Origin: an uncultured Paracoccaceae bacterium
Lineage (GTDB): Bacteria > Pseudomonadota > Alphaproteobacteria > Rhodobacterales > Rhodobacteraceae
DNA length: 64,000 bases
NCBI GenBank assembly: GCA_947498645.1
Contig: CANMKS010000001.1
Location: 906,032 to 970,031, forward strand
Direction of reading: 5' to 3'
Shown here: positions 11,330 through 48,168 of the stretch, in pieces
Numbering within the stretch: the first letter of the stretch is position 1
Layout: each line of letters opens with the position of its first letter
Program-made: the position numbers and the translations under genes
Notes under the pieces: generated by a model
Told to the model about the DNA's origin: nothing
What the model saw: only the letters and a program-made list of their open reading frames with translations
The model's database searches: none

Positions 11330-11345
11330 TTAAGGCCGCATTAAC
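11330..11345 (+). promoter_or_regulatory. CtrA-type binding site upstream of the DivL-like gene
   Basis: TTAA (11330-11333), seven bases, TTAAC (11341-11345): an exact match to the full CtrA consensus TTAA-N7-TTAAC. It lies 47 bases before the ATG of the PAS protein and 20 bases after the regB stop, so it is intergenic. Confidence 0.65.
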
Positions 11346-30230: not shown

Positions 30231-30737
30231 ATGTCCGATACACCCGAAAACGGTGCCGCCACCCCGCCACAGCAACCTCAGATCACCAGCCGCATCCTTG
30301 CGCAGTATATTCGCGACATGTCGTTCGAGAATATCCTTGCGCAAAAAGGTGTGACCGGCGACGCACAGCCCGAAATTCAGGTGCAGGTGAATCTTGATGC
30401 GCGCAAGCGCAAGCAGAAAGACCAGTATGAGGTTATTACCAAGCTGAACATCACCAGCAAGACCAAGGAAAAGGCAGAGCCGCTTTTTGTACTGGAGCTG
30501 GAATATGCAGGCGTTTTCCAGGTCGAAGGTGTGCCGGAAGAACAGATGCACCCCTATCTGCTGATCGAATGCCCACGGATGACATTCCCATTTGTGCGCC
30601 GGATCGTCAGTGACGTGACCCGCGACGGTGGCTTCCCGCCACTGAACCTGGATACGATCGATTTCCTCGCACTTTATCGCACAGAATTGGCCCGCCGCGC
30701 GGAAGCGGAAAAAGCTGCGAAAGAAAAGGCCAACTAA
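30231..30737 (+). CDS. secB: Protein-export chaperone SecB
   Basis: 168 residues. The SecB core is clear: ISRILAQYIRDMSFEN-like N-terminus, IQVQVNLDARKR, LELEYAGVFQVEGVPEE, LLIECPRMTFPFVRRI and DGGFPPLNLDTIDFLALY. SecB keeps exported proteins unfolded and hands them to SecA. The C-terminus carries a charged Ala/Glu/Lys tail. It ends ten bases before the convergent dnaQ, with a terminator hairpin between and partly inside that gene. Confidence 0.96.
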   Translation: MSDTPENGAATPPQQPQITSRILAQYIRDMSFENILAQKGVTGDAQPEIQVQVNLDARKRKQKDQYEVITKLNITSKTKEKAEPLFVLELEYAGVFQVEGVPEEQMHPYLLIECPRMTFPFVRRIVSDVTRDGGFPPLNLDTIDFLALYRTELARRAEAEKAAKEKAN

Positions 30738-32062: not shown

Positions 32063-32886
32063 GCGAGAACGGCCTGGCGTGTGGCATCGTCAACCTCGGG
32101 GCGCTGCCCAAACCAGCGTTCAAAACCCGGCACACCCTGATGCAACAGCATGCCAAGACCGTCGACTGTCGTGCATCCCTTCTTTTCTGCGGTGTCCAGG
32201 AAGGATGTGCGCAGCGGGGTATAGACAATATCGGTGACCACCGCCTCGGGGCGCAGGTTATCGAGTGAAACCTTGAATTCCTGGCCGCCAACCATGCCGA
32301 GCGAGGTGGTATTGATGACGGTATTCGCATCCTCCAGCATCATATCAGCCTGGACCCAATCCAACACCGTCACCCGTGCGCCGAAATCGGCGCGCAATGC
32401 TTCGGCCTTGGGACGTGTGCGGTTGGAAATGATGATCTCAGGCACACCCGCATCGGCAAGTGCGACAATAATCGCGCGGGCGGCACCGCCTGCCCCGAAA
32501 ATAGCGGCAGGCCCTGCCTTGGGATCCCAATTGGGCGCGCCCTGCCGAAGATTGGCCATGAAACCGTAACCGTCTGTATTATCTGCGAAAATTCGTCCGT
32601 CTTCTTTAAAGATCAGCGTATTGGCGGCACCAATTAACGTCGCCCGATCCGTGATCTGATCGGCGAATTGCATCACGCTGACCTTATGCGGGATCGTGAC
32701 ATTGGCCCCGATAAAGCCTTGCTTGGGTAGGGCGCGCAGTGTTGTTTCTAACGCATCCTCGGTCACTTTGATTGCCGTGTATTCCCCGTCCAGCCCATAG
32801 CGGTTCAGCCAATAGCTGTGCAGTTTCGGCGAGAGGGAATGGCTGATCGGATTTCCGATCACCGCGGCGCGTGGCAGACTGGTCAT
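32059..32886 (-). CDS. aroE: Shikimate dehydrogenase
   Basis: 275 residues. The shikimate site is shown by VIGNPISHSLSPKLHSYWLN and NVTIPHKV (catalytic Lys), with NTDGYGFMANL, and the NADP site by IFGAGGAARAIIVAL and NRTRPKAEAL. It reduces 3-dehydroshikimate in aromatic amino-acid synthesis. Both ends overlap neighbours by four bases (maf upstream, coaE downstream), so translation is probably coupled. Confidence 0.96.
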   Translation of the reverse strand: MTSLPRAAVIGNPISHSLSPKLHSYWLNRYGLDGEYTAIKVTEDALETTLRALPKQGFIGANVTIPHKVSVMQFADQITDRATLIGAANTLIFKEDGRIFADNTDGYGFMANLRQGAPNWDPKAGPAAIFGAGGAARAIIVALADAGVPEIIISNRTRPKAEALRADFGARVTVLDWVQADMMLEDANTVINTTSLGMVGGQEFKVSLDNLRPEAVVTDIVYTPLRTSFLDTAEKKGCTTVDGLGMLLHQGVPGFERWFGQRPEVDDATRQAVLA

Positions 32887-33482
32887 GTCGGCAATGTTCC
32901 GCGAAGTGTGAGGTATGACAAGAGTTCAAGAAGCGGCAGGCCCAGAACATTGAAATAATCTCCGTCGATGCGTGTAAAAAGTCGCACTCCTTCCTCTTCC
33001 AGCTTATAGGCGCCCACAGCGTGACGAATGCTGTCCCAGTTCCGGGCAATGTAATCCTCTATATAGGTATCTGAGGCATCACGCATATGCAGGCGCACCG
33101 TGCCCACATGCCGCCAAAGTGGCTTGCCTTCGCCATAGATGACGGCAGCCGAGAGGAGCTGATGCTTTTCGCCGCGCAGGGATTGAAGTTGCGCGAGGGC
33201 CTCGGCAGGGTTTTTGGGTTTGGACAAGATCGTTTGCCCATGCGCGAGAATCTGATCGCAACCGATCACAAGCCCCTCTGGGTGTTTGGCTGCGACGCGC
33301 TGCGCTTTCATTTCCGCCAGGGTGTCAGCAATATCGCGGGGTGTGGCATTCTCTGCCTGAAGCGATGCGCGGATGGCGTCTTCGTCGATCCGCGCGACAA
33401 TGACGTCAAAGGTAAGACCCGCGTTTTGAAGCAGTTTGGCGCGGATTTCGGAACCAGATGCCAGGATGAGCCGTTCGTTCAT
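32883..33482 (-). CDS. maf: Maf-family nucleotide pyrophosphatase
   Basis: 199 residues from ATG 33482. The family N-terminus LILASGSEIRAKLLQNAGL, VIGCDQILAHG and the ARNWDSIRHAVGAYKLEEEG segment are conserved. Maf enzymes hydrolyse nucleoside triphosphates, including modified pyrimidines and dTTP/UTP. The first codon overlaps a perfect DnaA box (33482-33490), which places the gene at the very edge of the presumed origin. It heads the maf-aroE-coaE-dnaQ operon. A longer frame upstream to 33623 would run into the origin and lacks a ribosome site. Confidence 0.93.
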   Translation of the reverse strand: MNERLILASGSEIRAKLLQNAGLTFDVIVARIDEDAIRASLQAENATPRDIADTLAEMKAQRVAAKHPEGLVIGCDQILAHGQTILSKPKNPAEALAQLQSLRGEKHQLLSAAVIYGEGKPLWRHVGTVRLHMRDASDTYIEDYIARNWDSIRHAVGAYKLEEEGVRLFTRIDGDYFNVLGLPLLELLSYLTLRGTLPT

Positions 33483-33490
33483 GTGGATAA
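33482..33490 (-). promoter_or_regulatory. Perfect DnaA box
   Basis: TGTGGATAA, the exact reverse complement of the consensus TTATCCACA, at the boundary of maf and the origin gap. It is the strongest of a cluster; related 7/9 matches occur at 33610, 33627, 33770, 33782 and 33796. Confidence 0.85.
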
Positions 33491-33891
33491 CCTTTGGGAC
33501 AATCTCTGTGTCGTTGCGCGGGTAGATTTGGGTACATCTAGCACCATCGGTTGGATCGTGGAGAAGCTTTGTGTTTCGGGCGTTGCCACCTGGTTTTTTC
33601 CACTGTGGACGGGGATAAGTCACGCATGTGGAAGAATCTGATCAGACGTGCCTGTCAAGTGGTGTAGAACGGCTTTTGTGATCTGATCGTAATTATGTAA
33701 CTATCTGATAATGTTGTATTTATATTGTGTTTCTCTTTCGTTCCTGATGAAGCAATCTGCCGAACAGCCTTGGGATAACTCTGCGGATGAATAGATAACC
33801 CACAGGATTTCTTTGTACTAACAACAACATCATCTTTTCTTTCTTTCTATATTTATTAGAGAAGAGAAGAGCGTAGAAAACAGGAAGACCG
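33483..33891. other. oriC: Probable chromosomal replication origin (oriC)
   Basis: A 409-base gene-free gap between divergent maf and hemJ, the position of the Caulobacter origin relative to the maf-aroE-coaE-dnaQ block. It has one perfect DnaA box at its left edge and 7/9 matches at 33610-33618, 33627-33635, 33770-33778, 33782-33790 and 33796-33804. There is a facing TCCAC/GTGGA pair at 33599-33609 and two AT-rich tracts (about 33690-33735 and 33825-33862) suited to unwinding. Three ATCTGAT heptamers start at 33636, 33681 and 33703. The right end has pyrimidine-rich then purine-rich arms just before hemJ. No open frame with a ribosome site is present. The replication function is inferred. 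Confidence 0.75.
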
Positions 33892-34341
33892 ATGATCGCA
33901 TTTCTGGACGGTATTTATCCCTGGATCAAAGCACTGCATATCATGGCTGTGATCGCTTGGATGGCTGGGTTGTTCTATTTGCCAAGATTATTTGTCTATC
34001 ATGCGGAACGGGCCAGTGTCGGGTCAGAGCTTGATCATACATTTCAGGTTATGGAAGAAAAGCTGCTGCGGGTGATCATGAACCCGGCGATGATTGTCGC
34101 TTGGGTCGCCGGTTTGATCATGATTGGTCTTGGGGCGTTTGATTGGGGTGCTGTCTGGTCATGGGTGAAGATTGTATCGGTGATCTTGATGACGGGTGCC
34201 CATGGGTGGATGGCCGCGCGACGCAAGGAATTTGTGGCTGGAACAAACACGCGGACGGGCCGAACCTATCGAATGGTCAATGAGGTTCCGACGGTCTTGA
34301 TGCTATTGATTGTTGTTGCGGTCGTGGTCCGGCCATTTTGA
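33892..34341 (+). CDS. hemJ: Protoporphyrinogen IX oxidase HemJ
   Basis: 149-residue membrane protein with about four helices. The conserved N-terminal histidine lies in WIKALHIMAVIAWMAGLFYL, followed by PRLFVYH and, after the second helix, the Arg/Lys-rich loop ARRKEFVAGTNTRTGRTYR and NEVPTVLMLLIVV. HemJ carries out the penultimate oxidation of haem synthesis in many alphaproteobacteria that lack HemG and HemY. AGGAAG lies eight bases before ATG 33892. It is the first gene to the right of the origin gap. Confidence 0.92.
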   Translation: MIAFLDGIYPWIKALHIMAVIAWMAGLFYLPRLFVYHAERASVGSELDHTFQVMEEKLLRVIMNPAMIVAWVAGLIMIGLGAFDWGAVWSWVKIVSVILMTGAHGWMAARRKEFVAGTNTRTGRTYRMVNEVPTVLMLLIVVAVVVRPF

Positions 34342-37047: not shown

Positions 37048-37063
37048 TGTTTCACGTGAAACA
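37048..37063. other. parS: parS centromere site 1
   Basis: Exact 16-base palindrome TGTTTCACGTGAAACA, the consensus bound by ParB. It overlaps the translation start of mnmG. It lies 3.2 kb from the origin gap and 3.3 kb from parB. Confidence 0.95.
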
Positions 37064-38921: not shown

Positions 38922-39542
38922 ATGGTAAATCAGATTGCCGGTGTCGATGTTTCACGTGAAACAATGGCAGATCTTGAGGGTTTCGCCGCGTTAACCACTA
39001 AATGGACGCAAAAGATCAATCTTATCTCTCGAAACACCTCGGATGATATCTGGAACAGGCACATTGTCGATTCGGTTCAGCTTTACCAATACGCGCCCGA
39101 TCGCTTTCAGAATTGGGTCGATCTGGGCAGTGGCGGCGGCTTCCCCGGTATCGTCATGGCGATTCTCGGCAAGGCAAAACAGCCAAAGGCGCAATTTATC
39201 CTGATTGAAAGCGATCAGCGCAAGGCGGCATTCCTGCGAACCGCAGCAAGAGAGCTGTCATTGCAGGTTGATGTGATTGCAAAACGCATCGAAGATGTGA
39301 CCCCACAAGGGGCAGATATTGTATCCGCTCGCGCGCTCGCACCACTATCTGCCCTTCTCGACATGACCTCCCGGCATCTTTCACCAGAGGGCATTGCCCT
39401 TCTCCCCAAAGGGAAACAGGTCAGACAAGAAATCGCCGAAGCGCAAAAATCATGGCGCTTTCAGCTTGAAGATCATGCCAGTTTCACTGATCCTCAGGCC
39501 TGCATACTCGCCATTCAAAGGATAGAATCCCGTGGTCAATGA
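38922..39542 (+). CDS. rsmG: 16S rRNA (guanine527-N7)-methyltransferase RsmG (GidB)
   Basis: 206 residues. SAM-binding motif WVDLGSGGGFPGIVMAI (about residues 65-81), IESDQRKAAFLRTAARE, and SARALAPLSALLDM. It methylates G527 of 16S rRNA; its loss gives low-level streptomycin resistance in other bacteria. The second parS palindrome is read here as residues V-S-R-E-T near position 10, a sequence common in alphaproteobacterial RsmG. It starts three bases after mnmG and overlaps parA by 11 bases. Confidence 0.95.
   Translation: MVNQIAGVDVSRETMADLEGFAALTTKWTQKINLISRNTSDDIWNRHIVDSVQLYQYAPDRFQNWVDLGSGGGFPGIVMAILGKAKQPKAQFILIESDQRKAAFLRTAARELSLQVDVIAKRIEDVTPQGADIVSARALAPLSALLDMTSRHLSPEGIALLPKGKQVRQEIAEAQKSWRFQLEDHASFTDPQACILAIQRIESRGQ
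38948..38963. other. parS: parS centromere site 2
   Basis: A second exact TGTTTCACGTGAAACA, inside the 5' end of rsmG, 1.9 kb from site 1. Both copies are identical over all 16 bases although they are read in different reading frames. Confidence 0.95.
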
Positions 39543-40341
39543 CACCCGCACCGGGCCGCTCATCATTGCGATTGCCAATCAAAAGGGCGGCGTTGGCAAG
39601 ACGACGACGACGATTAACCTCGGCGCGGCCTTGGCCGAACAAGGCAAACAGGTTCTGCTGATCGATCTTGACCCCCAAGGCAATGCCTCAACCGGGCTTG
39701 GCATCGGCCATGACCAGCGCGAGGCGACAACCTACGATTTGCTCTCGGGCGAGGTGTCTCTGGCCGATGCAATCCAGAAAACGGATGTTGATCGTCTTGC
39801 AATCGTCCCCGCCACAACAGACCTCAGTTCGGCCGATCTGGAGCTTATGGACAACGCCAAGCGCAGCTTTCTGATGCGGGATGTACTGCGGGCGACTCCA
39901 TCAGACACCAGCGCTTATGACTACATATTGATTGATTGCCCGCCATCCCTCAACATATTGACGGTCAACGCCATGGTGGCGGCGGATTCTCTGATTGTTC
40001 CTTTGCAAAGCGAATTCTTCGCGCTCGAAGGTCTTTCGCAACTTATCCTTACCGTTCGCGACGTCCGCCAAACTGCTAACCCTGATCTGCGGATCGAAGG
40101 CATCGCCCTGACCATGTACGACCAGCGCAACAATCTGTCTCTCCAGGTCGAAGATGATGCGCGCGAAAACATGGGCGATATGGTGTTCAACACGGTCATC
40201 CCACGCAACGTTCGCCTTAGTGAGGCCCCCTCCTTTGCAATGCCGGTGCTTTCCTACGACAGCAACTCAAAGGGCAGCATGGCGTATCGGGCGCTCGCGA
40301 ACGAACTGATTGCACGCACAACTGACAAAAAGGTCGCATAA
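39532..40341 (+). CDS. parA: Chromosome partitioning ATPase ParA
   Basis: 269 residues. Deviant Walker A IANQKGGVGKTTTTINLGAA with the signature Lys, IDLDPQGNASTGLG, and ILIDCPPSLNILTVNAMVAA. It lacks the N-terminal DNA-binding domain of plasmid type Ia proteins, as expected for a chromosomal ParA. It forms the nucleoid-bound gradient that moves ParB-parS complexes. GTG 39532 has AAGGA nine bases upstream and overlaps rsmG by 11 bases. Confidence 0.96.
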   Translation: MVNDTRTGPLIIAIANQKGGVGKTTTTINLGAALAEQGKQVLLIDLDPQGNASTGLGIGHDQREATTYDLLSGEVSLADAIQKTDVDRLAIVPATTDLSSADLELMDNAKRSFLMRDVLRATPSDTSAYDYILIDCPPSLNILTVNAMVAADSLIVPLQSEFFALEGLSQLILTVRDVRQTANPDLRIEGIALTMYDQRNNLSLQVEDDARENMGDMVFNTVIPRNVRLSEAPSFAMPVLSYDSNSKGSMAYRALANELIARTTDKKVA

Positions 40342-41229
40342 ATGGCACGCACACCCGCAAAATCCCGTGGTTTGGGCCGTGGCCTGTCGGCCCTGATGTC
40401 TGATGTCACGGCAGATGAATCCCCAAAAGAGACATCCAAGCGCCCTGATCTCATCGTTCCTATCGAACAGGTGCAGCCGAACCCGGACCAGCCACGCCGC
40501 ACCTTCGCCGAAGATGCCCTGCAAGAACTCGCCGCATCCATTGCAGAGAAAGGTATCATTCAGCCCCTCATTGTGCGTGCGGCTCCCGGCAAATCCAATA
40601 CATATGAGATCGTGGCAGGTGAACGCCGCTGGCGCGCTGCCCAGATTGCAAAACTGCACGATGTGCCTGTCGTCGTGCGCGACTACAACGATACCGAAGT
40701 CCTCGAAATCGCGATTATCGAGAATATCCAGCGGGCAGATCTGAACCCGGTGGATGAGGCCGCGGGTTACAAACAGTTGATGGACCGCTTCGGCCATACG
40801 CAGGATCAGATGGCAACGGCGTTGGGCAAAAGCCGCAGCCATATCGCCAACCTGCTCCGCCTTCTCAACCTGCCAGAAGAAGTCCAAAACTACCTGATCA
40901 GTGGTCAACTTTCCGCTGGCCACGCCCGTGCCCTGGTTGGTCATGATCAGGCCGTGCAGTTGGCGCGCGAAGTACTGCAACGCAAGCTCTCCGTCCGCGA
41001 AACCGAAAAGCTGGCCAAAAAGGGACCTACACTCAAGAAACGCTCAGTCCCCGGCGCACCCGTTCCCAAAGACGCTGACACCATACAGATCGAAAATGAG
41101 TTGAGCGCAACGCTTGGCATGAAGGTCACCATAGACCACCCTGCCGGATCCGAAGGCGGCAAACTTGCTGTCAGCTACAAATCACTTGAACAACTTGACG
41201 ACCTTCTGCGCGCACTCTCAGGCGGTTAA
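40342..41229 (+). CDS. parB: Chromosome partitioning CTPase/DNA-binding protein ParB
   Basis: 295 residues. An N-terminal ParA-interacting segment (KSRGLGRGLSALM), the CTP-binding domain with QPNPDQPRRTF and GERRWRAAQIAKL, a helix-turn-helix (TQDQMATALGKSRSHIANLL, about residues 155-174), and a C-terminal dimerisation domain. It loads at parS and slides as a CTP-dependent clamp. It begins right at the parA stop and overlaps the convergent hemW by four bases. Confidence 0.96.
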   Translation: MARTPAKSRGLGRGLSALMSDVTADESPKETSKRPDLIVPIEQVQPNPDQPRRTFAEDALQELAASIAEKGIIQPLIVRAAPGKSNTYEIVAGERRWRAAQIAKLHDVPVVVRDYNDTEVLEIAIIENIQRADLNPVDEAAGYKQLMDRFGHTQDQMATALGKSRSHIANLLRLLNLPEEVQNYLISGQLSAGHARALVGHDQAVQLAREVLQRKLSVRETEKLAKKGPTLKKRSVPGAPVPKDADTIQIENELSATLGMKVTIDHPAGSEGGKLAVSYKSLEQLDDLLRALSGG

Positions 41230-44882: not shown

Positions 44883-45440
44883 ATGTCTGAGAAAGACGAA
44901 CCATTGCAAAGCCTTGATGAACTCGCAGCCGAAGGCGACGACGCGGAATTTGATGCCGCCGCCGCCAGTTTTGACGAGATCGAAGCACTGCGTGCCGAAC
45001 GCGATGAATTCCGTGACAAATTCATGCGCGCATTGGCCGATGCTGAAAACACCCGCAAACGTGCAGATCGCGACCGGCGCGAGGCTGAAAACTATGGCGG
45101 ATCCAAACTTGCCCGCGATCTGTTGCCTGTCTACGACAACATGCATCGCGCCCTGACTGCCGCCAAGGAAGGCGACGAAAAGGTACCAGAATCCCTGCTT
45201 GAAGGGGTCGAACTGACGATGCGCGAACTGATCAACGTCTTCAAAAAACACGGGATTGAGCCGATCACACCCGAAGTCGGCGAGAAATTCGACCCCAAGA
45301 TGCACGAGGCGATGTTCGAGGCACCCTTGCCCGGCACCAAATCAGGCGAGATCATTCAGGTTTCGACCAACGGCTTTATGCTGCACGACCGTCTGCTGCG
45401 CCCGGCGCAGGTTGGCGTGTCGTCAATGCAGGCGTCGTAA
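44883..45440 (+). CDS. grpE: Nucleotide exchange factor GrpE
   Basis: 185 residues: a long acidic coiled-coil N-terminal half with DEIEALRAERDEFRDKFMRA and the conserved ENTRKRADRDRREAENYG, and the C-terminal head with GIEPITPEVGEKFDPKMHEA, FEAPLP and RLLRPAQVGVS. It releases ADP from DnaK. AAGGAAGACGAA before the ATG is a good ribosome site. It is followed by a GC-rich intergenic repeat element. Confidence 0.96.
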   Translation: MSEKDEPLQSLDELAAEGDDAEFDAAAASFDEIEALRAERDEFRDKFMRALADAENTRKRADRDRREAENYGGSKLARDLLPVYDNMHRALTAAKEGDEKVPESLLEGVELTMRELINVFKKHGIEPITPEVGEKFDPKMHEAMFEAPLPGTKSGEIIQVSTNGFMLHDRLLRPAQVGVSSMQAS

Positions 45441-45525: not shown

Positions 45526-48168
45526 CTACTCCGGTTTTTCAGTCAACAACTCGCGCAATTCATAGATCAAAGCGAGCGCATCTTTTGGCGTCAGATCATC
45601 GGGTAGCACTTTTTTCAGGCGTTCCTCGACCTCGGACACCGTGGTGACCGCAGGTTGCGGCGCAGGCGTTGCCGCAAACAGCGGCAGATCGTCGATGACG
45701 GCCTTGCGCGATGTGCCACCTTCCCTTTCACCTTTTTCCAAAGCCTCCAGCACCACCTTTGCCCGCTCGACGACGACGGGCGGCAGCCCGGCCAGTCGCG
45801 CAACCTGCACGCCATAGCTGCGATCAGCTGTTCCGCGTTTGACTTCGTGCAGGAAAATCACGTCGCCGTCCCACTCTTTGACGGTGACGGTTGCATTTTC
45901 CACCCCCGTCAACTTGTTCGAAAGCGCTGACATCTCGTGATAATGCGTGGCGAACAGGGCGCGGCAGCGGTTCACATCGTGCAGATGTTCCAATGTGGCC
46001 CATGCAATAGACAGGCCATCATAGGTTGCCGTCCCGCGTCCGATTTCGTCCAGGATCACCAGGGCGCGGTCGTCTGCCTGATTCAGGATTGCGGCTGTTT
46101 CGACCATTTCCACCATAAATGTCGACCGGCCACGCGCCAGGTCATCGGATGCGCCAACGCGGCTGAAAATCTGGCTCACGATACCGATATGGGCCTTTGC
46201 GGCGGGAACAAACCCACCCATCTGTGCCAGGATCGCCAGCAGCGCGTTTTGCCGCAGGAACGTCGATTTACCGGCCATGTTCGGGCCGGTCAGCAGCCAG
46301 ATCGGCGCCTCGGTCAAGGCGCAATCATTCGCGACGAAGGGTGCGCCATCTTTTTGCAGCGCGGCCTCGACAACCGGGTGCCGCCCGCCCGTAATTTCAA
46401 ACCTGCGGCTGTCATCGACCTTGGGGCGCACCCAGTTTTCGCCCGTTGCCAGATGGGCCAATCCCGCGGTCAGATCAATTTCCGACAATGCCCGCGCAAG
46501 CGCGCCAAGCGGCCCGGCCTGTGCGATAATTGCTTGAGTTAGGCTGGAATAGAGCCGCTTTTCGATCTCAAGCGCCCGTCCGCCTGCGTTGAGAATGCGT
46601 GTCTCGATCTCGGACAGGTCCACTGTGGTAAACCGCACCTGATTGGCGGTCGTCTGACGATGAATGAAGGTCTCGTTCAGCGGTGGCGCCATCATTTTCG
46701 TGGCGTGGGTTGCCGTCGTTTCGATAAAATAACCCAGCACGTTGTTATGCTTGATTTTCAGCGACGCCACACCGGAGGTCTCGATATATGCCGCCTGCAT
46801 TTTGGCAATCACGGATCGCCCTTCATCACGCAGTTTGCGCACCTCATCCAGTTCGGTGTCATAGCCCGGCGCTATGAACCCGCCATCACGCGATAAAAGC
46901 GGTGGCTCGGCGATCAACGCCTGATCTAACAGCTCCAGCAATGCATCATGCCCGGTCAGATCCTTGGCTGCACCGGCCAGAACTGTGGGCAGATCAGCAG
47001 ACAAGCACTCTGACAGCGCCACCGCTTGCGCAATCGTGTTGCGAATGGCCGCCATATCGCGTGGTCCGCCCCGATCCAGCGCCAATCGCGACAAGGCCCG
47101 GTCCAGATCATGCACACCGCGCAGGGTGTCGCGGATATCCTCGGACAAGCGCGTATTATCAACAAGTGCCGCAACCGCGTCTTGCCGCGCTGCAATGACA
47201 TCTACACTGCAAGAAGGCGAAGCCAGCCGCCGCTCCAACAGGCGCGCACCTCCTGCTGTCGTGGTGCGGTCGATGCAGTGCAGCAGTGATCCTTGCCGTC
47301 CGCCGCCCATCGCGTGGGTCAGCTCTAGTGACTTGCGGGTCGCGGCATCAATCTGCATTGCGCTGGACTGGCCCTCTTGCACCGGTGGGCGCAGCAACGG
47401 CAGGTTCCCGCGTTGGGTGATCTCCAGATACTCTGCCACCGCAGACATTGCTGCAATTTCGGCCCGGCCAAAGCTGCCAAACGCATCAAGCGATCCGACG
47501 TTGTAGAGACGACACAGGCGTTTTTCGCCTGCTGTGCTGTCAAACGCCGCAGCGCCCAATGTCGTCAGCGTCGCGCCGGAATCAGACACTATTCCAGCCC
47601 AATCGCCCTCTGATCCATCCACGACAATGACCTCGCGCGGGGTCAGCCGTGCCAGTTCCGGCCCCAGCGCCGCCCCCGCGCAGGGCATCACATGAAATGC
47701 CCCTGTCGAGATATCGACCCAAGCCAGCGCCCCTTCATCCCGCACCACATGAAACGCCGCCAGAAAGTTGTGCCGCCTTGCGTCCAGCAGTGAATCCTCG
47801 GTCAGCGTGCCGGGGGTGACCAGCCGCACGACCTCGCGTTTGACGACGGCCTTGTATCCGCGCTTTTTCGCTTCGGCGGGGCTTTCCATCTGTTCGCAGA
47901 CGGCCACACGAAACCCTTTGCGGATCAACGTCAGAAAATATCCTTCTGCGGCGTGATGCGGCACGCCGCACATTGGAATATCGGCGCCGTCGTGTTTGCC
48001 GCGTTTGGTCAGGGCGATATCCAGCGCCGCGGCCGCGGCGACCGCATCATCAAAGAACATCTCGTAGAAATCGCCCATGCGATAGAACAGCAGCGCATCA
48101 GGATGATCGGATTTGATCTCCAGATACTGCGCCATCATGGGCGTAACCGTGTTTTTTTCGCTGCTCAT
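45526..48168 (-). CDS. mutS: DNA mismatch repair protein MutS
   Basis: 880 residues. Mismatch-binding N-terminus (MAQYLEIKSDHPDALLFYRM, with GDFYEMFFDDA following and containing the Phe-x-Glu mismatch motif), connector and lever domains, and the C-terminal ATPase with TGPNMAGKSTFLRQNALLA, ALVILDEIGRGTATYDG and FATHYHEM. It recognises mispairs and recruits MutL. The C-terminal tetramerisation tail ends ELLTEKPE. It runs convergent to grpE and divergent to the malic enzyme gene. Confidence 0.97.
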   Translation of the reverse strand: MSSEKNTVTPMMAQYLEIKSDHPDALLFYRMGDFYEMFFDDAVAAAAALDIALTKRGKHDGADIPMCGVPHHAAEGYFLTLIRKGFRVAVCEQMESPAEAKKRGYKAVVKREVVRLVTPGTLTEDSLLDARRHNFLAAFHVVRDEGALAWVDISTGAFHVMPCAGAALGPELARLTPREVIVVDGSEGDWAGIVSDSGATLTTLGAAAFDSTAGEKRLCRLYNVGSLDAFGSFGRAEIAAMSAVAEYLEITQRGNLPLLRPPVQEGQSSAMQIDAATRKSLELTHAMGGGRQGSLLHCIDRTTTAGGARLLERRLASPSCSVDVIAARQDAVAALVDNTRLSEDIRDTLRGVHDLDRALSRLALDRGGPRDMAAIRNTIAQAVALSECLSADLPTVLAGAAKDLTGHDALLELLDQALIAEPPLLSRDGGFIAPGYDTELDEVRKLRDEGRSVIAKMQAAYIETSGVASLKIKHNNVLGYFIETTATHATKMMAPPLNETFIHRQTTANQVRFTTVDLSEIETRILNAGGRALEIEKRLYSSLTQAIIAQAGPLGALARALSEIDLTAGLAHLATGENWVRPKVDDSRRFEITGGRHPVVEAALQKDGAPFVANDCALTEAPIWLLTGPNMAGKSTFLRQNALLAILAQMGGFVPAAKAHIGIVSQIFSRVGASDDLARGRSTFMVEMVETAAILNQADDRALVILDEIGRGTATYDGLSIAWATLEHLHDVNRCRALFATHYHEMSALSNKLTGVENATVTVKEWDGDVIFLHEVKRGTADRSYGVQVARLAGLPPVVVERAKVVLEALEKGEREGGTSRKAVIDDLPLFAATPAPQPAVTTVSEVEERLKKVLPDDLTPKDALALIYELRELLTEKPE

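Follow-up and report, generated by a model that had tools for sequence, protein, structure and literature searches.

A predicted replication origin between maf and hemJ on a Rhodobacteraceae chromosome, with a candidate trinucleotide opening element

The 409-bp interval between the divergent genes maf and hemJ is very probably (about 95%) the replication origin, oriC, of the main chromosome of this uncultured marine Paracoccaceae bacterium. The window, by which we mean the whole 64,000-nucleotide stretch analysed, covers positions 906032-970031 of contig C1; this contig, of 3,239,443 bases, is one of four that make up the 3.38 Mb genome, and it carries dnaA. Computation gives the gap a conserved position, a change of GC skew around it, parS sites nearby, conserved DnaA boxes, a conserved IHF consensus match, a conserved trinucleotide element and low DNA stability (Table 1). 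An earlier note, made from the sequence alone, had read the gap as the chromosomal origin, and that reading is supported by the agreement of sampled skew, parS, synteny and the footprints of aligned gaps. An origin beside maf has already been predicted for the family, and the gap is not new in kind. The less expected feature appears to be the putative opening repeat, which reads mostly as 3'-GWW-5' and often as 3'-GTW-5'.

Table 1 Features of the predicted origin and its surroundings. Coordinates are those of the window; fractions over 49 give the number of aligned gaps that keep a base.
Feature	Coordinates	Strand	Basis
Predicted oriC, entire maf-hemJ intergenic gap	33483..33891	.	GC, boxes, stability, skew change, conserved position and length
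maf, left neighbour	32883..33482	-	PF02545; start at 33482
hemJ, right neighbour	33892..34341	+	PF03653; start at 33892
DnaA box 1, perfect TTATCCACA, shares one base with the maf start codon	33482..33490	-	G33483, G33485, G33486, A33487, A33489 49/49
DnaA-box-like site 2, TTCTCCACG	33557..33565	-	2 mismatches; partly conserved, G33560 47/49
DnaA-box-like site 3, TTTTCCACT	33596..33604	+	2 mismatches; T33599 49/49, C33603 48/49
DnaA-box-like site 4, TTATCCCCG	33610..33618	-	2 mismatches; G33613, A33615, A33617, A33618 49/49
DnaA-box-like site 5, TCTTCCACA	33627..33635	-	2 mismatches; T33627 and G33628 49/49
GANTC, overlapping site 5	33634..33638	.	fixed columns keep the motif letter in 38, 47, 45 and 40 of 49
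Least stable 30-bp window of the 64 kb, overlapping the IHF site	33694..33723	.	nearest-neighbour scan
IHF consensus site TATCAGATAGTTA (perfect WATCARNNNNTTR)	33698..33710	-	consensus match in 35/49 aligned gaps at up to 1 mismatch
DnaA-box-like site 6, TTATCCCAA	33770..33778	-	2 mismatches; A33775, A33777, A33778 49/49
DnaA-box-like site 7, TCATCCGCA	33782..33790	-	2 mismatches; A33790 49/49
DnaA-box-like site 8, TAACCCACA, closest to the opening element	33796..33804	+	2 mismatches; conserved as AxCCxCAG, 33798-33805
DnaA-trio-like element CAACAACATCATCTT, five CWW triplets on plus, 3'-GWW-5' on minus	33822..33836	-	period-3 conserved columns
Pyrimidine/AT-rich tract, predicted unwinding region	33835..33860	.	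30-bp window second lowest in stability begins at 33829; T columns and TATTTATTA kept
parS, perfect TGTTTCACGTGAAACA	37048..37063	.	one of the genome's two perfect copies
parS, perfect TGTTTCACGTGAAACA	38948..38963	.	the genome's other perfect copy
parA and parB	39532..41229	+	PF13614, PF02195, PF17762

A conserved gap with DnaA boxes and an IHF consensus site

The gap is free of genes, as the earlier note had described, with maf on the minus and hemJ on the plus strand. A hidden gene of any length was rejected, the longest stop-free stretch being 63 codons, and so was a known structured RNA, as 33300-34000 gave no Rfam match at the gathering threshold. Pfam assignments place maf, aroE, coaE and dnaQ to the left, with secB further out (30231-30737), and hemJ, rho, mnmE, mnmG, rsmG, parA and parB, in that order, to the right. 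Both flanking gene orders had been recognised before; secB lies on the plus strand, convergent with dnaQ. Also nearby are mutS (45526-48168) and grpE (44883-45440).

HemJ matches were obtained in 60 of 61 family genomes, with 12 weak ones (E above 1e-20) that may be paralogues, and loci for comparison were chosen by best HemJ match: the best 30 of the 60 matched family genomes, and the best 80 of 180 in a named collection, where Yoonia and Loktanella are the closest named relatives by HemJ. All of the best 30 family loci, the window's own included, have divergent maf and hemJ, separated by 364-453 bp in 27 and by about 1.2 kb in three. The same arrangement is present in 79 of the best 80 named-collection loci, with gaps of 370-436 bp in 72, one of 337 bp and six of 1.2-2.2 kb; a locus on a 3.8 kb contig with no maf match (L125) was dropped from the gap count. 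Combined, 109 of 110 loci are divergent, 99 have a gap of 364-453 bp, and 107 gap sequences are distinct. The 453-bp gap of L017, from genome G024, is T-rich by appearance and matches the common pattern poorly; in that genome the origin may have been relocated.

At 43% GC the gap stands out from its surroundings. When 410-bp windows were taken every 50 bases across the 64 kb, the eight with the lowest GC all overlapped it, and 0.36% of all such windows were as GC-poor. A nearest-neighbour scan of the 64 kb at 30, 60 and 100 bp put the two windows of lowest stability inside the gap each time, in line with the two easily melted tracts in an AT-rich gap that had been pointed out previously. By computed stability, the gap contains the AT-rich, easily opened element of a DnaA-dependent oriC.

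Compared with the DnaA box TTATCCACA, the gap has one perfect site and seven with two mismatches; the perfect box had been noted before, along with five 7/9 matches, a count that should be seven. These eight sites in 410 bp stand against four in the runner-up within the 64 kb and a mean of 0.9. Shuffles of the gap itself are less favourable, 9 of 300 reaching its nine sites at up to two mismatches from TTATNCACA; at up to one mismatch the gap has a single site, a number reached by 103 of 300 shuffles, and a stretch near 62.1 kb has three. A perfect box was rejected as evidence by itself, since the genome holds 17 against 14 for the reversed control. Because perfect boxes are not rare and the shuffles are less favourable, it is conservation that speaks most strongly for the boxes. 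By density and conservation the cluster exceeds chance, less clearly so against the gap's own shuffles.

Conservation was read from 49 aligned gaps, those of the window and 48 closer relatives (the 337-bp gap, L115, and L117-L147 were left out), since an alignment of all 30 family gaps was poor in the middle. Islands of near-identity stand in otherwise variable sequence: the DnaA-box cores in both arms, a TAA-N5-TG block at 33698-33707, period-3 C/A columns at 33825-33834, and a T-rich stretch followed by TATTTATTA. Matches to WATCARNNNNTTR, which we take to be the IHF consensus, occupy one block in 35 of 49 gaps at up to one mismatch, 10 of them perfectly; the best other block has 4, and in 2000 column permutations the value of 35 was never attained. 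Among 99 family gaps (those longer than 460 bp were left out of this and the following motif counts), 20 have a perfect site anywhere (shuffle mean 3.7, maximum 9), and 14 of these perfect sites lie 181-200 bases before hemJ on the same strand. Perfect sites are present in 7 of the 50 gaps outside the 49-sequence alignment.

The motif GANTC, presumably the CcrM-type methylation motif, occurs 253 times in the 99 gaps against 146 expected (1.7-fold) and in 84 gaps against 77 expected, and GATC is not enriched (154 observed, 144 expected). Overlap of GANTC with a conserved DnaA-box-like site could tie methylation to initiation. A GTCAA block at 33654-33658 is also strongly kept, in 43-47 of 49 gaps per column; on the minus strand it reads TTGAC, a possible maf -35 element directed out of the origin. 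The gap has no full CtrA site (TTAA-N7-TTAA), as had been observed before, the only copy in the 64-kb window being at 11330. In having none, the gap differs from a Caulobacter-type, CtrA-controlled origin. Full sites occur in 5 of 99 family gaps against 1.8 expected. CtrA is not essential in the Rhodobacterales studied (PMC8116508).

A trinucleotide element and the DnaA residue at the Asn187 position

Between box 8 and hemJ the alignment shows a strict period of three. C33828, C33831 and C33834 are kept in all 49 gaps, A33826, A33829 and A33832 in 48 and C33825 in 44, and C33822 in only 28. A fixed 14-base consensus search misplaced the element in some gaps, and run statistics were used instead. 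On the hemJ-sense strand, 62 of the 107 distinct gaps of the family have a run of at least four CWW triplets, where shuffles average 0.7 and the opposite strand gives 1. With the threshold lowered to three the number is 85 (9.5 on average in shuffles, 12 on the opposite strand), which leaves 22 gaps with no run of three. The run lies at most 95 bases from hemJ in 81 of the 85. Runs of three 3'-GTW-5' occur in 64 of 107 gaps (shuffle 1.1) and runs of three 3'-GAW-5' in one (shuffle mean 1.1).

Beyond the family, we compared 20 loci from 16 other families of the class, hand-picked from 95 genomes with a match; no gap was obtained for four of them (L193, L194, L201 and L204). The signal is weaker in the resulting 16 class gaps, with at least three triplets in 5 (shuffle mean 1.4, maximum 4) and at least four in 2 (shuffle mean 0.03), and by eye several mix CTA with CAA.

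The box and trio strands of Bacillus subtilis are oriented as in the window. The B. subtilis order is DnaA boxes, a short spacer and trios of consensus 3'-GAT-5' (PMC8287927, PMC6669920), and its basal unwinding system, or BUS, composed of DnaA-box 6/7 and the DnaA-trios, resembles the window in the succession of box, short spacer and repeat and in the adjoining AT-rich tract (PMC6669920, PMC8287927, PMC10721633). It differs in its trio, 3'-GAT-5' with a middle A, where the window's repeat reads for the most part as 3'-GWW-5' or 3'-GTW-5', and in DnaA Asn187, which is Tyr in the genome analysed here. The window does have a CTA (3'-GAT-5') at 33818-33820, one base out of the repeat frame; in several relatives, for example CCTACATCATCATC, the CTA is in frame. 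From the end of box 8 (33804) the spacer measures 13 bases to the out-of-frame CTA and 17 to the in-frame repeat, compared with a published limit of 0-16 (PMC8287927). The published trio rule (at least three.A. trios lying no more than 16 bases from a box; PMC8287927) is loose and was not used as evidence; applied by hand, it also fits the variable bases between box 8 and the repeat.

In the captured B. subtilis pair, 3'-GA-5', the guanine contacts Arg202 and Glu228 and the adenine contacts Asn187; a thymine in place of the adenine slows opening and a cytosine does not (PMC10721633). Aligned with the 8BTG chain, the DnaA encoded on C1 carries Tyr, Arg, Lys and Glu at positions 187, 196, 202 and 228, respectively. 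Position 187 is Tyr in 26, Phe in two and Trp in one of 29 other family genomes, and Tyr in 17, Phe in two and Asn in one of 20 class genomes. A phylum-wide search matched 60 of 60 genomes, with loci taken from 30, and yielded 27 additional DnaA proteins. One came from the window's own genome (Tyr), four from other members of the class (Tyr 3, His 1) and 22 from other classes (Thr 11, Asn 5, Ala 3, Gln 2, Leu 1), with no aromatic residue among the latter. Judging by these alignments, an aromatic residue at 187 is compatible with a changed reading of the repeat's middle base. The repeat was scored within the class only, and as residue 187 varies outside the class, the link between residue and repeat remains a suggestion. 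The broader proposal, that alphaproteobacteria use a different single-strand code at oriC (an aromatic residue at the Asn187 position and 3'-GWW-5' trios, mostly 3'-GTW-5' in the Yoonia/Loktanella clade and so with the middle thymine that slows opening in B. subtilis), seems to us rather doubtful, and is made less probable by the out-of-frame CTA and the 17-base in-frame spacer of the window.

How the gap would be opened is finely balanced. In E. coli, oriC has an IHF site between box arms and an AT-rich unwinding region at one end, with the dnaA gene elsewhere on the chromosome; opening there begins when box-bound DnaA, helped by the IHF bend, captures the T-rich strand of this region. The predicted origin shares the IHF site between box arms, the AT-rich end and the distant dnaA gene, and differs from E. 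coli oriC in its neighbouring genes, in the trinucleotide element and in the enrichment of GANTC rather than GATC in family gaps. Opening in the E. coli manner, with some other role for the trinucleotide element, is a serious possibility to which we give a little less than even odds. It would agree with the conserved central IHF site, with the conserved hemJ-side tract, whose plus strand is rich in T, and with the 17-base spacer between box 8 and the in-frame repeat, one above the 16 of the published program (PMC8287927). Against it, few columns of the gap are conserved as strictly as the period-3 C/A columns by the right-hand box, and the order of box, spacer and repeat is of the B. subtilis type (PMC8287927). 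Opening through the trinucleotide element is, in our estimate, an even chance, and the two modes are not mutually exclusive.

Chromosomal skew, parS and the identity of the replicon

GC skew along the 3.24 Mb contig was sampled in 36 stretches of 20 kb plus the window in four pieces, a resolution of tens of kb. Skew was negative in all 13 pieces between 1 and 923 kb, positive in all 15 between 1.2 and 2.6 Mb and negative in all six from 2.7 Mb; of six pieces between 923 kb and 1.12 Mb, four were positive and two slightly negative. Pieces of the wrong sign lie at 939.7 kb (-0.012) and 1.10 Mb (-0.008). The best two-arm splits fall at 960, 920 and 940 kb, with the gap at 939.5 kb, and the second change lies between 2.62 and 2.70 Mb, the antipode of the gap being at 2.56 Mb. 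The skew minimum by which the earlier note had proposed to judge its origin thus appears as a sampled change of sign around the gap, with best splits at 920-960 kb. Third-codon-position skew splits best at 960 and 1000 kb and gene-strand bias at 900 kb. Counts of GGGNAGGG, which we take to be the FtsK-orienting motif known from E. coli and which is a weak guide in this genome, split best at 1.02-1.08 Mb (3.9, versus 2.6 at 940 kb). Because these splits differ, they fix the region and not the exact base; within the window, cumulative skew forms no clean V.

Skew in two further genomes of the family was read from 20 points, each 10 kb long. In one (G012) the range of best skew splits includes hemJ, in agreement with the sign change at the site. 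The other (G027) disagrees by GC skew, which has no peak at hemJ (0.027, versus a best of 0.078 at 0.34-0.44 Mb), and its GGGNAGGG count flips between the samples flanking hemJ. The two measures conflict on the origin of that contig (G027 C1), perhaps a rearranged chromosome.

The 16-mer TGTTTCACGTGAAACA, presumably the parS motif, is matched perfectly at just two places in the genome, 3.2 and 5.1 kb beyond the right end of the gap, and with two mismatches at a third, at 2.77 Mb. The dnaA gene lies at C1:747.9-749.2 kb, where skew is negative on both sides, and an origin at dnaA was rejected on this ground.

We consider it very improbable that the true origin lies elsewhere in the region, for example near parAB, or at dnaA, and that the gap is a conserved divergent maf/hemJ promoter region that binds DnaA. 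In favour of this are the resolution of skew by itself, tens of kb only, the chance that the minus-strand TTGAC block is the maf -35, and the position of the conserved right end, 30-75 bp from the hemJ start. On the other side stand the negative skew flanking dnaA, the 64 kb with no other place of comparable box density or instability, and the loci that keep hemE beside the origin: there, by eye, a comparable box, repeat and AT-rich end precede hemE and not hemJ, so the element is not tied to hemJ. Many Rhodobacteraceae have multipartite genomes, and the earlier note had named a secondary replicon, with a repABC origin of its own, among the findings that would overturn its reading. For C1 this is hardly conceivable and was rejected, as the contig makes up 3.24 of 3.38 Mb and carries dnaA, and the RepC family PF03428 has no match in the genome (among 14 control genomes the profile gave one match below the cut-off, a thin demonstration of its sensitivity). 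In a plasmid search, rho, mnmE, mnmG and hemJ had distant matches only, and the result was left unused.

With the gap as oriC of the main chromosome, we infer the following course of initiation from the arrangement of its features. One strong and about seven weak boxes would hold DnaA in two arms (33482-33635 and 33770-33804), which an IHF-induced bend at 33698-33710 would bring together. The right arm would then lead DnaA onto the minus strand of the trinucleotide element (33822-33836), and the AT-rich tract at 33835-33860 would open beside it and receive the helicase. Two forks would depart in opposite directions, and ParB, bound to parS 3-5 kb rightward of the gap, may help to separate the new origins.

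Absence of hemE and ppsR from the interval, and comparison with known origins

In Caulobacter crescentus, Cori lies between hemE and COG1806 (PMC1914354), and the Sphingopyxis origin was placed at hemE (PMC4741004). The earlier note had set the Caulobacter origin beside a maf block; the syntenic place does correspond, but the direct neighbours of Cori are hemE and COG1806, not maf (PMC1914354). Cori and the window further share DnaA boxes, one IHF site and an AT-rich stretch; they differ in CtrA sites, five full ones in Cori and none in the gap, and in the boundary genes, which are absent from the window's interval (PMC1914354). The window thus keeps the block dnaQ-coaE-aroE-maf ... hemJ-rho-mnmE-mnmG of a hemE/COG1806-type alphaproteobacterial origin and, by its conserved consensus match, the IHF site, with neither hemE nor COG1806 as a direct boundary. 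The genome's hemE is at C1:1648425-1649444, 0.7 Mb from the gap, with skew of equal sign on either side (samples at 1.60 and 1.70 Mb), and PF03618 (COG1806/ppsR) has no match in the genome. Since ppsR is without a match and hemE is elsewhere, maf and hemJ are the direct neighbours of the gap.

Intermediate arrangements exist among the Rhodobacteraceae sampled. The long gaps contain PF03618 (ppsR) in L006, L010, L134, L138 and L013, the last identical in sequence to L138, PF01208 (hemE) in L120, L121 and L126, and both genes in L129; all four states (both genes, hemE only, ppsR only, neither) thus occur within this one sample. These nine loci could serve to map the successive losses in a phylogeny. 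In the 20 hand-picked class loci, searched with the proteins of L120 and L006, hemE was found within the stretch in 19 and ppsR in 15. The order is directly ppsR-gap-hemE in 15 and maf-gap-hemE in one, with the same maf ... hemJ block where it is kept; maf, hemJ and rho have the window's arrangement in 14 of the 20. Based on these gene orders, the simplest reading would be that the origin stayed in place while both of its neighbours left.

Within the family, an oriC beside maf has been reported as conserved, from DoriC, in work on Ketogulonicigenium vulgare Hbe602 (PMC4793288). Origins of 101 Rhodobacteraceae were assigned with Ori-Finder, the GC-disparity minimum and closeness to parAB (PMC6699656), and for Rhodobacter sphaeroides cumulative GC skew served to locate OriC1 (PMC6315104). 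Marker-frequency data are available for Cereibacter sphaeroides and three Paracoccus strains (PMC13342612). The window agrees with the DoriC and Ori-Finder predictions in its position beside maf and in the criteria applied (parAB, GC-disparity minimum, local GC minimum, DnaA boxes); the IHF site, the trinucleotide element and the loss of ppsR and hemE are absent from the located passages of the two reports (PMC4793288, PMC6699656). The passages found by full-text search hold no description of DnaA-trios in alphaproteobacteria. A survey of trios marks Proteobacteria classes in its tree figure, and its predictions may cover them (PMC8287927).

In this genome, the use of hemE and COG1806 as the landmark of alphaproteobacterial origins would mislead, as the maf-hemJ gap keeps the origin features. 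The aligned gaps provide a map of box arms, IHF site and opening element for mini-origins of the roseobacter group. As the putative opening repeat departs from the B. subtilis trio in a group whose DnaA also departs at a residue that contacts the trio in B. subtilis, the existence of more than one single-strand code becomes a testable question.
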